A stretch of DNA of 24,518 bases from a virus: positions 1-24,518 of the IMG/VR virus record IMGVR_UViG_3300025380_000009. One strand, written 5' to 3'. The notes below the pieces were generated by a model that was given only the letters and a program-made list of their open reading frames with translations, was not told the origin of the DNA and searched no databases. Below, one piece after another: positions 1-21,536 of this stretch. The stretch's first letter is position 1. The number at the start of each line of letters is the position of its first letter. A program made the position numbers and the translations under genes.

Positions 1-26
1 TCTGGGCTCTGGTTGGCTTCTATCAT
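1..26 (-). CDS. 5' end of an unidentified gene, cut by window edge
   Basis: An ATG at bases 26-24 follows an AGGGA-type ribosome-binding site and opens a frame reading M-I-E-A-N-Q-S-P to the window edge. It starts 27 bases after the stop of the nucleotidyltransferase-like gene and on the same strand, which fits the next gene of the same transcript. Only eight codons are visible, so nothing can be said about the product. The upstream leader (27-52) contains a short tandem repeat of ATAGGGAA. Confidence 0.35.
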
Positions 27-52
27 GTTCTTTTTCCCTATGGTTCCCTATG

Positions 53-487
53 TTAAAATATCTTAGTAGATATCTTGGCTGGTATGATAGCAGTTTTTAG
101 ATCTGGGTGCAATGTTTTCCGATGAAGATAAGCTGCCAGATCTTCCGCCTTGCCAGCATGATACCTTCCCGTTATCAGTGAGTACAATGGCAGATCCCAT
201 GCCTTTTTTACTAATCTGTATGGTAGATCTGCAGCGGGGAAGTATTTTACAGTTAATCTTTTCCCGTGAAAGCTCTCTGCAGTTGTAGATCGATAATCCC
301 ATTCTTTTACATTTGAGGCATATACAGCGATATCAAAATCAGATCTATCCCTGAACGTCCCCTGCACCCGGCTTCCTGCAGCATAGATTTCTACAATGTC
401 ATACCCGGGAGATTGAGCGATCACAGCAGCCCTGAGCTCTTTTAGAAGCTCTGGTGGATAGTCCTGAACTTTCAGCTTATCTATCAC
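53..487 (-). CDS. Nucleotidyltransferase-fold (Pol beta / MNT-like) protein
   Basis: This 144-residue protein carries the signature of the Pol beta nucleotidyltransferase superfamily. Residues 35-52 have A-A-G-S-R followed by G43, then S49-D50-F-D52-I, matching the GSxxxG...SDxDh pattern that binds nucleotide phosphates and two metals. The third carboxylate usually sits on a following beta strand (pattern hDh). Here that strand appears to be R77-L-T-V-K-Y-F with no acid, so catalysis may be lost or use another residue such as D87. The remainder is short and helical, as in minimal nucleotidyltransferases (MNT). The start is a GTG placed immediately after the TAA of the large fibre gene, suggesting translational coupling; no strong ribosome-binding site is visible. 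Related families include MNT antitoxins, aminoglycoside nucleotidyltransferases and AMP-transferases. The substrate cannot be inferred. Its position directly behind a fibre is unusual for a structural operon. Confidence 0.7.
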   Translation of the reverse strand: MIDKLKVQDYPPELLKELRAAVIAQSPGYDIVEIYAAGSRVQGTFRDRSDFDIAVYASNVKEWDYRSTTAESFHGKRLTVKYFPAADLPYRLVKKAWDLPLYSLITGRYHAGKAEDLAAYLHRKTLHPDLKTAIIPAKISTKIF

Positions 488-3400
488 TTACAATATCTCA
501 AAGGTTGTTACTAATCCGTCTTTTACAACTACTACCCATTCATCTGAGTTAAGATCCGTGAAATACTTGGTAAGGTTCGCACCATTGGTTCCATCAGAAG
601 ATTGAAAATTATTGAGCGTTTTTATATTCCCCCCGGCGATAAAGTGATCATCTGTTGATAGAATATTTGCTGCAGATCTGTAGAGATTGGTATCTGTAGC
701 ATCACCCAGATAGATCCCATCTGCCATAGTCCTTACTGCGATATCACCATCATAGTAAATGTTCACTGAGTTATCCGGATCAAAGGTGAGCCCATACTTA
801 TTTACCCCAGAAGCGTTCTGAGCCCACATCACTATCCCAGTACCATGATATTGATTGTAGATCCAGAGGATATTTGAGCTTACATAGATTTTAGCATACC
901 CGGTAGTATTTACCCCTATATACAGATCTGCACCGACAATATGGAAATCAGCTTCAGATGTGAGAACTCCACTTGCATTGTCCAGATAGATATTGGAATC
1001 TACAGATCCAAATCCTATCCCCTCACTATAAAGGGGAATTGTATCTGTAGAGGATTGCCAAAATAAATAGGCTTCCGTTCCACCAGCGTTCTCAGTATGA
1101 AGTGCGTAGATATCAGATCCTGCAGCCCCCAGTGAACCATTAGACCAGCCTATAACCGTATTCACATAAGGGAAAAATAGCCCTTCCCATGATCCGATTA
1201 CATTCTCACCAAGTCTTGCTATTTCATTATTGCTTGAGTCATAGAAGTGGAGCCTTCCATTCACGTAATCAAGTTCTATTCTCTGGTTCCCAGCACCAGC
1301 ACCAACAAAGCTACCAGTAGCATCTAAGCCCTTCGCTTTGTTTTCTACACTGGCAGCACGAACATTTGCTGAAGCAGCCTTATTGTCAGCCAGCAGAGCA
1401 GCCTGCTTCGCCGTTTTTGCCTGAGCATAGGCTGTTTTGGAACTGTTCACAGCACTGACAGCAATAGCATTTGCAGTCTTGGCTTTGGTGTAAGCGGTAT
1501 CTGCAGAAACCTGAGCGGATCCAGCTTTTTTGTCAGCAGCATTGGCGGAAGTCTGAGCATTATCTGCATCTTGATTTGCAGTCTTGGCTTTAGCATAGGC
1601 AGTGGCAGCATGAGCCGTTGCATCCGTGGCAGTATCCAGTGCATCGTCTGCAGTATTCTGAGCTCCATTTGCAACTACCAGAGCAGATCCTGCTTTCACG
1701 TCTGCAGATCCTGCTTTATTGTCAGCGATTGCTGCATCATTTTTTGCGGTTAGTGCCTGAGCCTGAGCGGATCCTGCATTAGCGAGTGCTACAGATGCTT
1801 CACCACCGGAAGAGATTGCACGAACCAAAGCGGATTGAGCTTTGGATCCTGCAGATCCAGCTTTCTGATCTGCGAGTGTAGCTGCCTGTTTTGCAGTTTT
1901 TGCAGAGTTTACAGCGGATGTAGCGATGATTCTGGCAGTGTTTGCCTGAGCATAAGCCGATTTTGCATGAATATCCGCATCGTCTGCATCTTTGATAGCT
2001 GTGGATGCTTTTGCCTCACCAGATCTGGCACGGGCTTCCCCGGACTTGGCACGGGATTCTGCTGAAGTGGCTGTATCTAATGCCAGAGCAGCTTCACCCC
2101 CGGCTGAAATTGCACGGGTAAGAGCAGAAGAGGCTTTTGCATCAGCGGATCCAGCCTTCACCAGAGCAGATCCCGCTTTCACATTGGCAGACTTAGCCAC
2201 GTTCTGGGCAGAAGTGGCATTGGTGTTTGCAGTGTTTGCTTTAGCCAGAGCGGTTTTACTTGAATTTTGAGCACTGACAGCATTTGCATTTGCTGTGGCA
2301 GATCTGGCATCAGCGGATTGGGATCTCACATCTGAAGATCCAGCTTTGACAATGGCACTATCAGCCTTGTTATCTGCCAGAGCAGCATCCTGAACTGCAG
2401 TATTTGCCCGGGATAGGGCAGAACTTGCCTGTGATCCAGCGGAGCCAGCACGAACATCAGCAGAAGCAGCTTTGATTAATGCACTCCCAGCCTTTTGATC
2501 AGCCAGAGTAGCAGCTTGTTTTGCAGTGGTAGCTTTCGCTTCCCCGGACTTGGCACGGGATTCTGCAGAGGTTGCTGTATCCAGAGCCAAAGCAGCCTCA
2601 CCACCAGCGGATATCGCCCGAGTGAGGGCACTACTTGCCTTCGCATCTGCAGAGCCTGATTTGACCAATGCGGAGCTTGCTTTATCATCTGCATCTGAGG
2701 CATCAGAAATTGCTTGGGTTGCATCAGTCTGGGCAGATTTGGCTACAGCATCAGCGGATCCTGCTTTTATGCTGGCAGATCCTGCCTTTACGCTGGCTGA
2801 ATCAGCCTTCACTGAAGCACTTTGAGATCTTACATCAGCGGATTGAGATCTCACATCAGCGGATCCCGCTTTTACTATTGCACTATCTGCCTTGTTATCT
2901 GCCAGTAAAGCATCTTGCTTCGCTGTCTGGGCAAGTGCATCTGCTGAAGCTGCTTTAACTAATGCACTGCCAGCCTTTTTATCCGCTGAAGATGCCCGAA
3001 CATCTGCAGAATGAGATCTGGCTGTAGAATCACCTACATTTTCAAGCAGCTTAGATGCATCGTCTGGGAGCTTGCCATCTTTAAGGTTTGTGAACCCCGT
3101 ATGAACTACTCCATCCGCCTGAACTACGTTTCCACCGCCCTCTTGAATCAGCGTTCCTGTAGGAAGATTCCCTGCAGGAAGAGCAGGGTTTGCATTTGGC
3201 TGGTAATCGCTCCAATTAGCATGAGCATATACAGCCCCTTCCGTGGATCCAGATTTGGTAGAGAAGTATGGATATACCTTAAATGTTATGAAATCATCCC
3301 CGGGGAGATTGATCGAGAACTTCCGAACAGTGGAATCCACTTTTACAGATGGACTGGAATCATCCACCGTTTGGGGAGATCCGGATCCGTGGCTCCATCG

Positions 3401-3793
3401 AACGATAAAACCATGAGCGAATTCAGAGCCCTGAGTGAATCCCCATTCAATCGTGACCTGAGCACTCAGTTTATTATTTACATGCCCTACAGGAGTAGAT
3501 CCTGCAGCAAAGGAACCATTGGGAGCGGTATCGTTTACAAACTGCTCCACACCTTCGATCAGAGTATTAGATACTACCTCAATCCCATAGAGATTATCAG
3601 CGGGGGTAGTTCCCCCGCCTGTAAAAGTAACATCATACTTCCCAGACACCGGGCGGATGAACTCCCAGTATCCTTTTTGATCACCGACCTGCTTGGATTC
3701 AATGGTATCTATTCGAACAGAATCTGATTGGCGAACCAGATCTACCCGGACACCAGTAATTCCAATATTTCCGCTTAATGATTCCTGTGGCAT
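488..3793 (-). CDS. Giant alanine-heptad tail fibre protein
   Basis: This 1101-residue protein has the architecture of a long trimeric tail fibre. Residues 1-100 form a beta-rich attachment region and residues about 108-200 look like a fibronectin type III fold. A linker leads into a pure heptad region at residues 262-821: 80 consecutive seven-residue units of form S-A-x-x-K/R-A-x with alanine at positions 2 and 6, without a single skip. Residues after 825 are beta-rich, with fibre-type strand repeats such as Y-L-G-D followed by N-L-Y-R-S-A-A-N. The protein ends in V-V-V-V-K-D-G-L-V-T, resembling the C-terminal caps of other tail fibres. A coiled coil of 560 residues would be roughly 84 nm long (0.15 nm per residue, known for coiled coils). 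The likely role is host recognition at a distance from the baseplate. The ATG at 3793 lies 8 bases after the preceding gene. Low-complexity coding makes long spurious frames appear on the opposite strand. Confidence 0.8.
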   Translation of the reverse strand: MPQESLSGNIGITGVRVDLVRQSDSVRIDTIESKQVGDQKGYWEFIRPVSGKYDVTFTGGGTTPADNLYGIEVVSNTLIEGVEQFVNDTAPNGSFAAGSTPVGHVNNKLSAQVTIEWGFTQGSEFAHGFIVRWSHGSGSPQTVDDSSPSVKVDSTVRKFSINLPGDDFITFKVYPYFSTKSGSTEGAVYAHANWSDYQPNANPALPAGNLPTGTLIQEGGGNVVQADGVVHTGFTNLKDGKLPDDASKLLENVGDSTARSHSADVRASSADKKAGSALVKAASADALAQTAKQDALLADNKADSAIVKAGSADVRSQSADVRSQSASVKADSASVKAGSASIKAGSADAVAKSAQTDATQAISDASDADDKASSALVKSGSADAKASSALTRAISAGGEAALALDTATSAESRAKSGEAKATTAKQAATLADQKAGSALIKAASADVRAGSAGSQASSALSRANTAVQDAALADNKADSAIVKAGSSDVRSQSADARSATANANAVSAQNSSKTALAKANTANTNATSAQNVAKSANVKAGSALVKAGSADAKASSALTRAISAGGEAALALDTATSAESRAKSGEARARSGEAKASTAIKDADDADIHAKSAYAQANTARIIATSAVNSAKTAKQAATLADQKAGSAGSKAQSALVRAISSGGEASVALANAGSAQAQALTAKNDAAIADNKAGSADVKAGSALVVANGAQNTADDALDTATDATAHAATAYAKAKTANQDADNAQTSANAADKKAGSAQVSADTAYTKAKTANAIAVSAVNSSKTAYAQAKTAKQAALLADNKAASANVRAASVENKAKGLDATGSFVGAGAGNQRIELDYVNGRLHFYDSSNNEIARLGENVIGSWEGLFFPYVNTVIGWSNGSLGAAGSDIYALHTENAGGTEAYLFWQSSTDTIPLYSEGIGFGSVDSNIYLDNASGVLTSEADFHIVGADLYIGVNTTGYAKIYVSSNILWIYNQYHGTGIVMWAQNASGVNKYGLTFDPDNSVNIYYDGDIAVRTMADGIYLGDATDTNLYRSAANILSTDDHFIAGGNIKTLNNFQSSDGTNGANLTKYFTDLNSDEWVVVVKDGLVTTFEIL
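2024..2170 (-). repeat. Seven-heptad block, copy 2 (heptads 41-47)
   Basis: This 147-base block encodes heptads 41-47, in order beginning SALVKAG, SADAKAS, SALTRAI, SAGGEAA, LALDTAT, SAESRAK. It matches the block at 2528-2674 in 46 of 49 residues by my alignment, 504 bases away. DNA identity is far lower, mainly through synonymous changes, except for a nearly identical stretch near the SAESRAK-SGEA end. Confidence 0.85.
2528..2674 (-). repeat. Seven-heptad block, copy 1 (heptads 17-23)
   Basis: This is the partner of the block at 2024-2170, beginning SALVKSG and then SADAKAS, SALTRAI, SAGGEAA, LALDTAT, SAESRAK. A third, more diverged relative occurs at heptads 55-59 (SALVRAI, SSGGEAS). Such blocks could recombine in frame and change fibre length in multiples of seven residues. 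Confidence 0.85.
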
Positions 3794-20641: not shown

Positions 20642-20968
20642 TTATTCAGTCCCAGCAGCTTTTGCTGCCATTGTAAACATTAATCCAATAAATCCAGATA
20701 CCATTAAATTCACAATTAATATAGTCACTCCCACCACTAACCGGGATGTTTCAGATTCTTTTTTTTCACGGAATTTTACATTTGCTTTAAAATCACTAAT
20801 ATCAAATTCCTTCATATCTTTTACTATCCCCATCAGGATCCCCTTCATCCCGGTATCGTTCGGACTAAAAGGATCTCCAGAAACCATATTGCAAATGTTT
20901 GTCACTTTATCGCCCTGCAGCTTCTGTAATCTAAGGATCTCATTCTGGATATCACGTTCGGATGGCAT
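20642..20968 (-). CDS. Small single-pass membrane protein
   Basis: I chose the ATG at 20968 (M-P-S-E-R-D-I-Q, 108 residues) over one at 20989 because GGGGGAA lies just upstream and the earlier ATG has no ribosome-binding site. It overlaps the receiver gene by 17 bases, so translation is probably coupled. Residues 1-75 are polar and helical with no signal peptide. Residues about 81-102 form one membrane helix (V-V-G-V-T-I-L-I-V-N-L-M-V-S-G-F), leaving a short C-terminal tail. Topology with the large N-terminal part inside is likely. It could be a holin, anchor or partner for the receiver protein. No known family is recognised. Confidence 0.6.
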   Translation of the reverse strand: MPSERDIQNEILRLQKLQGDKVTNICNMVSGDPFSPNDTGMKGILMGIVKDMKEFDISDFKANVKFREKKESETSRLVVGVTILIVNLMVSGFIGLMFTMAAKAAGTE

Positions 20969-21536
20969 GTATTCCCCCAAGCATTTCATTTTGAGCTATC
21001 ATATCAGTTTCAAGAATATTCAGACTTATCACATTTTGCCTTATCTGATTAAGGCTTTCCATTAGCTCCAAGCATCGTCCTACACGGCGATTAAATACAT
21101 GGGGTTTAAGTGGTTTATCGTAACATACGAAATTATCAAATTCACTCTTCAGTTTCGCCCTCATCCCGTCTGCTGCAGTAATAAATATCACTGGAGTTAC
21201 ATGATACCCATTCAGTGCATTCAGTGCCTTTGCAGCCTGAACTCCATCTGTATTCCCATCTAACAGCACATCCATAACAAATAAATCAAAATCATGTTCA
21301 CCAGCCATCTTCATTGCTGATTCAAAGTTGCCAGCCTCACCCACATATACCTCTGGGAAGCTATACTCAATCAATCCACGGAGATAAGCCCTCTGGGATC
21401 TATCATCGTCAACTATAAGAATCGATCCTTTTGCATGAGGCATTTTTGTATCGTCCTTTTCTGTTTCATCCGTATCCCCACCAGCAATACTGCTGGGGGG
21501 ATCGGACGGGGCACGGGATGAATTCTTTGGGCTCAT
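20952..21536 (-). CDS. Stand-alone CheY-like response regulator receiver protein
   Basis: This 194-residue protein contains a complete receiver domain at about residues 37-158. It has the acidic pocket I-L-I-V-D43-D44-D, the phosphoacceptor strand L-F-V-M-D89-V, the switch T120 in V-I-F-I-T-A-A-D and the invariant lysine K141 in C-Y-D-K-P-L. Spacing between these residues matches CheY to within one residue. There is no DNA-binding or enzymatic output domain. Residues 1-31 are polar and disordered (P, S, D, E, T-rich) and about 36 residues after the domain look helical. An internal ATG at 21443 with AAAAGGA upstream could yield a shorter form beginning M-P-H-A-K. The gene sits between a C1q-like structural protein and two membrane proteins on the same strand. 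A phosphorelay role is inferred from the residues; the partner kinase is unknown. Confidence 0.85.
   Translation of the reverse strand: MSPKNSSRAPSDPPSSIAGGDTDETEKDDTKMPHAKGSILIVDDDRSQRAYLRGLIEYSFPEVYVGEAGNFESAMKMAGEHDFDLFVMDVLLDGNTDGVQAAKALNALNGYHVTPVIFITAADGMRAKLKSEFDNFVCYDKPLKPHVFNRRVGRCLELMESLNQIRQNVISLNILETDMIAQNEMLGGIHAIRT
20972..20978 (-). promoter_or_regulatory. Ribosome-binding site fixing start of the membrane protein
   Basis: GGGGGAA ends a few bases before the ATG at 20968. Upstream of the alternative ATG at 20989 there is only AT-rich sequence, so this site decides the start. Confidence 0.6.
21454..21460 (-). promoter_or_regulatory. Possible internal ribosome-binding site in receiver gene
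   Basis: AAAAGGA lies 10 bases before an in-frame ATG at 21443, exactly where the receiver domain proper begins. It may drive a shorter form lacking the disordered N-terminus. Confidence 0.4.

Follow-up and report, generated by a model that had tools for sequence, protein, structure and literature searches.

A nucleotidyltransferase-fold gene abutting a phage tail fibre gene, a candidate exchangeable partner of the fibre tip

MntA of the type VII HEPN/MNT systems (NTP_transf_2/PF18765) is defined by the sequence motif GSX10DXD and has D71 as third ligand (PMC7641770), and Pol-beta nucleotidyltransferase (NTase) domains are also carried by the polyvalent proteins of phages (PMC5512222). In human OASL a threonine replaces the third carboxylate, which partly accounts for the inactivity of the protein (PMC4446440). 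Chaperones of tail fibres, e.g. T4 gp38, Tfa and V22 gp27, are commonly encoded directly downstream of the fibre gene (PMC7289586).

Here, we analysed a 24,518-bp IMG/VR fragment, in the following termed the window, which contains an NTase-fold gene directly downstream of a tail fibre gene and stops 26 bases into the gene behind it. In position, size and exchange together with the fibre tip, the NTase resembles T4 gp38, Mu/pyocin Tfa and V22 gp27; unlike these tail fibre chaperones and adhesins it has an NTase fold and no sequence match to such families, a PHROG search with the protein returning no family at all at E-values up to 10. With MntA it shares the N-terminal half, including GSX10DXD and the α-β-helix-β start, but it has 144 instead of approximately 100 residues, appears to lack the third Asp, has no HEPN partner, is located in a fibre context and contains a C-terminal part, [DE]LPxYSLI...EDxxAYLxxK, which is not present in MntA. 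The likeness to ANT(4')/KNTase lies in the fold of the N-terminal domain as seen in a predicted model, whereas the second domain is missing and a sequence relationship was not detected, making this a match of the fold only. Polyvalent proteins likewise have a minimal Pol-beta NTase in mobile elements, with the domain being fused to other modules; these are, however, giant multidomain proteins that are injected or transferred, while the window NTase is a fibre-linked solo gene. The catalytically inactive OASL shares the NTase fold and the threonine at the place of the third carboxylate, but is a eukaryotic dsRNA-binding protein, so that this likeness is an analogy only.

The open reading frame of 144 codons exceeds all frames obtained in 2000 shuffles of the same bases (maximum 131 codons, mean 56), and its translation contains G38-S39-X10-D50-F-D52, i.e. 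an exact GSX10DXD motif (Table 1). Pfam detects Polbeta at residues 30-72 (9.7e-7; 29.3 bits vs. a curated cut-off of 26.9) and NTP_transf_2 at residues 16-64 (5e-5; 24 bits vs. a curated cut-off of 21). An AlphaFold2 model, for which the input alignment had depth in the N-terminal half only, reached a pLDDT of 77.7 and a pTM of 0.72; a model computed from the single sequence was discarded (pLDDT 43). The matches found by Foldseek and VIA-align are NTases, namely ANT(4')/KNTase, MNT, Tam41, 2rff and HalB, with the sugar-modifying ANT(4')/KNTase enzymes on top (Foldseek E 2e-4; VIA Z 8.4 over 116 residues, 4ebk). A Z of 8.4 is barely over the level of common arrangements, so that the kind of hits outweighs its value. 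The original prediction, made from the DNA letters, had read a GSR...SDFD motif in this gene and assigned it to the NTase fold; the motif is exact in an intact frame, confirming the observation, and the gene had been assigned to the correct fold, the fold itself being predicted from the Pfam, AlphaFold2 and Foldseek/VIA results.

Table 1. Coordinates of the features at the fibre-NTase locus in the window.
Feature	Position	Strand	Basis or remark
Fibre gene, 1101 aa, alanine-zipper shaft	488..3793	-	PHROG tail fibre 1.8e-10; Pfam Alanine_zipper
Fibre tip, aa 1028-1101, unlike sister phage	488..712	-	L002 fibre similarity ends at aa 1027
Exchangeable cassette, tip and NTase	55..712	.	Flanks common to window and L002
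NTase-fold gene, 144 aa	53..487	-	GTG start, TAA stop; core 12-84, C-terminal strand and helix ~98-125
G38 codon, start of GSX10DXD	371..373	-	Translation, counted from 487; S39 codon 370-368
D50-F51-D52 codons, DxD metal site	332..340	-	Translation; invariant across 29 aligned NTases
T79 codon, third-acid place by predicted strand order	251..253	-	AlphaFold2 strand 76-84; cysteine in L054 (HLCIAT)
D98 codon in [DE]LPxYSLI, E in L054; possible substitute acid	194..196	-	Two-member alignment
Downstream flank, CATAGGGAACCATAGGGA leader and next gene's start (ATG at 26)	1..54	-	Orthologue of L002 101-aa gene

In the model, the DxD strand and a short hairpin are followed by a third core strand, KRLT79VKYF (residues 76-84; pLDDT 81-88), suggesting that T79 occupies the place of the third metal-binding acid. 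The residue D98 precedes a well predicted strand (101-103; pLDDT of 93 for residues 101-110) and falls into the column of the MNT third acid in a MAFFT alignment; in the alignment used for the model, the MNT sequences had been trimmed after the DxD strand, leaving them no influence on the position of this acid. It had been proposed that the third acid is missing and that structure prediction would locate its place. The model supports this as far as it points to T79, replaced by a cysteine in the relative L054 described below, and the loss of the acid is likely; D98, or the corresponding glutamate in L054, may stand in for it.

At the junction of the two genes, the fibre TAA (490..488) is directly followed by the GTG of the NTase gene (487..485), in the same frame and without any gap, exactly as originally read, and the Shine-Dalgarno match of the NTase gene is the second weakest among the 24 genes scored. 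The abutting same-frame start together with the weak Shine-Dalgarno match fits NTase translation being coupled to the fibre gene, supporting the close coupling proposed before. TAA, TAG and TGA all terminate genes in the window; since the three stop codons are in normal use, a reassignment of stop codons was ruled out as the cause of this arrangement. The distance to the next gene is short, as had been noted, but comprises 26 bases (27..52) and not 27, the ATG being located at base 26.

Sister phages were found in two IMG/VR contigs (86% in the baseplate J-like protein), and one of these stretches, L002, shows 82% DNA identity to the window over 17 kb. The similarity of the fibre proteins extends through the shaft to residue 1027 of the window fibre and then ends, and the last 54 bases of the window, i.e. 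the leader plus the beginning of a 101-aa gene, match L002 again (83.3%, E 3e-9). The segment enclosed by these shared flanks encodes a 74-aa tip plus the NTase in the window, but a 179-aa tip plus a 65-aa zinc-ribbon-like ORF in L002; the similarity of tip and downstream ORF between window and L002 is not above chance. The joint replacement of the tip and the downstream gene between shared flanks shows them to be one exchangeable cassette. In L002 the 101-aa gene is followed by a gene whose 1301-aa product (L005:10308-14213) combines two glycosyltransferase parts of the GT1 type and a GT2 with a methyltransferase and TPR repeats; this gene is located two genes behind the fibre, and its product may act on fibre or virion glycans. 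Two further observations were made in the window. GATC occurs 310 times in 24.5 kb (12.6 per kb) vs. approximately 94 times expected from the base composition, similarly in L002, an excess set aside as unrelated to the NTase question; and a protein with a response-regulator receiver domain (20952-21536, minus strand; Pfam 1.8e-14) is encoded amid structural and tail genes.

Viral contigs were scanned for a degenerate DNA motif, which gave 22 stretches, among them L054. Here, an NTase forms the C-terminal part of an open frame, as an in-frame fusion to a preceding fibre-like region. The NTase domain of L054 matches the window NTase with 29.5% over 119 residues and a local score of 121, compared to a mean of 27 (s.d. 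4.4) for shuffled sequences. As the scan selected for the motif, the similarity of the N-terminal halves is partly built in; the C-terminal half, lying outside the search pattern, scores 57, compared to 22 on average and at most 49 for 500 shuffled sequences, and Pfam confirms the L054 NTase independently. The region upstream of it has S.DGT.G..FTD..S.EW....K.GLVT..[DE]I in common with the end of the window fibre tip, SSDGTNG..FTD..SDEWVVVVKDGLVTTFEI (E 8e-6), and it is this one 41-residue motif on which the fibre-like assignment rests; the 5' end of the frame is cut off, and a PHROG search with the N-terminal part gave no match. The fused gene lies upstream of a portal gene, identifying L054 as a phage, and beyond the NTase domain and the fibre-end motif no similarity to the window genes was noticed. 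As fusion is usually taken to point to interaction, the L054 arrangement suggests that the NTase probably works with the fibre tip. Homologues unlinked to phages had been named as an observation speaking against the original prediction; the sole full-length relative is encoded in a phage contig and fused to a fibre-like region.

These two proteins, the window NTase and L054, are the known members. No close homologues emerged when phage, plasmid, viral and genome collections were searched with exact peptides and tblastn, and nothing useful was found in a search of phage records for relatives of L054; tblastn matches in mycobacteriophages (E 0.7-1) were taken as chance, the one examined, in Gadjet, being antisense to an annotated gene. 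The nearest proteins apart from L054 are MNT antitoxins, which match in the N-terminal half only. A scan with a motif profile gave 32 loci in genomes, the intact ones encoding proteins of the MNT type, many of which are directly followed by a HEPN gene or fused to a HEPN part, and in the viral contigs one match, an MNT-HEPN fusion in a single ORF adjoining an integrase (L042:3402-4061). The two-member profile recovers L054's own record at 2.7e-96 and finds 0 matches at 1e-7 in approximately 1440 sampled bacterial genomes (395, 398, 247 and 398) from Bacteroidota, Pseudomonadota, Spirochaetota and Bacillota, as judged from the titles of the centre genomes, and the rarity of the family thus applies to these sampled groups only. 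Solo phage NTases of the phrog_15166 type (L056:12007-12417 and L060:1340-1702), a family annotated as of unknown function, were rejected as relatives, matching the window NTase over the motif only. They have an asparagine (LNL) at the presumed place of a third acid and are other possible phage NTases without this acid. An unrelated viral contig encodes a 102-aa NTase ORF (L052:11713-12021) with the third D present in VDLKI, which overlaps a 687-aa tail-like gene at its end and precedes a 358-aa repeat protein, representing a second case of an NTase amid apparent structural genes.

Our leading, still tentative, explanation is that the NTase is an exchangeable partner or domain of the fibre tip, probably a pseudoenzyme, working on or with the tip. 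According to this model, the translation of the NTase would be coupled to the end of the fibre gene, and the protein would move among related phages together with the tip and would most likely act as a bound accessory, an adhesin subunit or a folding partner, while in the L054 phage the domain would simply be the C-terminal part of the fibre-like protein. As the third acid is replaced by threonine (cysteine in L054) and GS and DxD are kept, binding of a nucleotide or of a phosphate- or sugar-containing ligand is more likely than nucleotide transfer; we infer the binding to the tip, the loss of catalysis and the type of ligand from these features. A pseudoenzyme tied to the fibre was among the roles offered originally, and the coupling and the probable loss of the third acid support it. 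Rather doubtful is the wider proposal that phages unrelated to each other have recruited an NTase fold with a broken triad as fibre tip or as an adhesin bound to it, in one case fused and in the other as a separate protein. Several points count against the preferred explanation: the known members number two, the fibre-like assignment in L054 depends on a single motif, a dead enzyme need not keep DxD, which is fully kept here, D98 may supply the third acid, and a gene behind a fibre may be unrelated cargo.

The main rival, which we consider unlikely, is an active nucleotidyltransferase that modifies a protein, RNA or sugar, such as the fibre, the glycans on it or a factor of the host, and in which the metal site is completed by D98 or by a group of the substrate. 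GSX10DXD is intact in both members, [DE]98 is conserved before the well predicted strand and aligned by MAFFT with the MNT acid, the best structural matches modify sugars and the sister phage has its glycosyltransferase/methyltransferase gene nearby, but predicted strand order puts T79 and not D98 at the third-acid place. Next, and a little less probable, comes cargo (a moron) acting intracellularly on host RNA or defence, for which the solo NTases of other phages without fibre linkage (L056, L060) and the unrelated zinc-ribbon ORF filling the slot in the sister phage can be adduced; the fusion in L054, the joint exchange with the tip and the lack of an own ribosome site argue against it. The shared frame, the zero gap, the weak ribosome site and the fused homologue would also agree with fibre and NTase being one protein of 1246 aa, split by a recent nonsense change or an assembly or base-calling error or joined by occasional readthrough. 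This is improbable, the stop lying exactly at the domain boundary, where a random nonsense change would rarely fall, with a usable GTG following at once and stop codons being normal. An MntA-type antitoxin of an HEPN/MNT pair, as suggested originally, is largely refuted and highly improbable: the N-terminal half is clearly of MNT type (38 bits with its own profile; hhalign 97.6%), but the protein scores 28.2 bits against the cut-off of 60 for the NCBIfam MntA equivalog (14.4 vs. 200 for the CBASS cyclase), the third acid appears absent and an additional C-terminal part is present. A HEPN gene with RX4HXY is not indicated on either side, the upstream neighbour being the fibre and the downstream gene, with 26 bases in the window, being syntenic with the 101-aa gene of L002; reading beyond base 1 by way of this synteny, as had been advised for finding a HEPN gene, gave no match to the HEPN families PF01934 and PF08780, neither in the 101-aa protein nor elsewhere in the contigs.

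Taken together, the two sequences suggest a known fold in a new genomic role: as far as searched, in open-licence papers, we found no description of an NTase fold linked to and located behind a tail fibre. Genes behind tail fibres often determine host range. As a binding module, the NTase would illustrate how phages make adhesins from the folds of enzymes; as an active protein, it would represent a modifying enzyme with a tie to the virion. In both cases, fibre and NTase form a small and defined pair that is directly amenable to testing.
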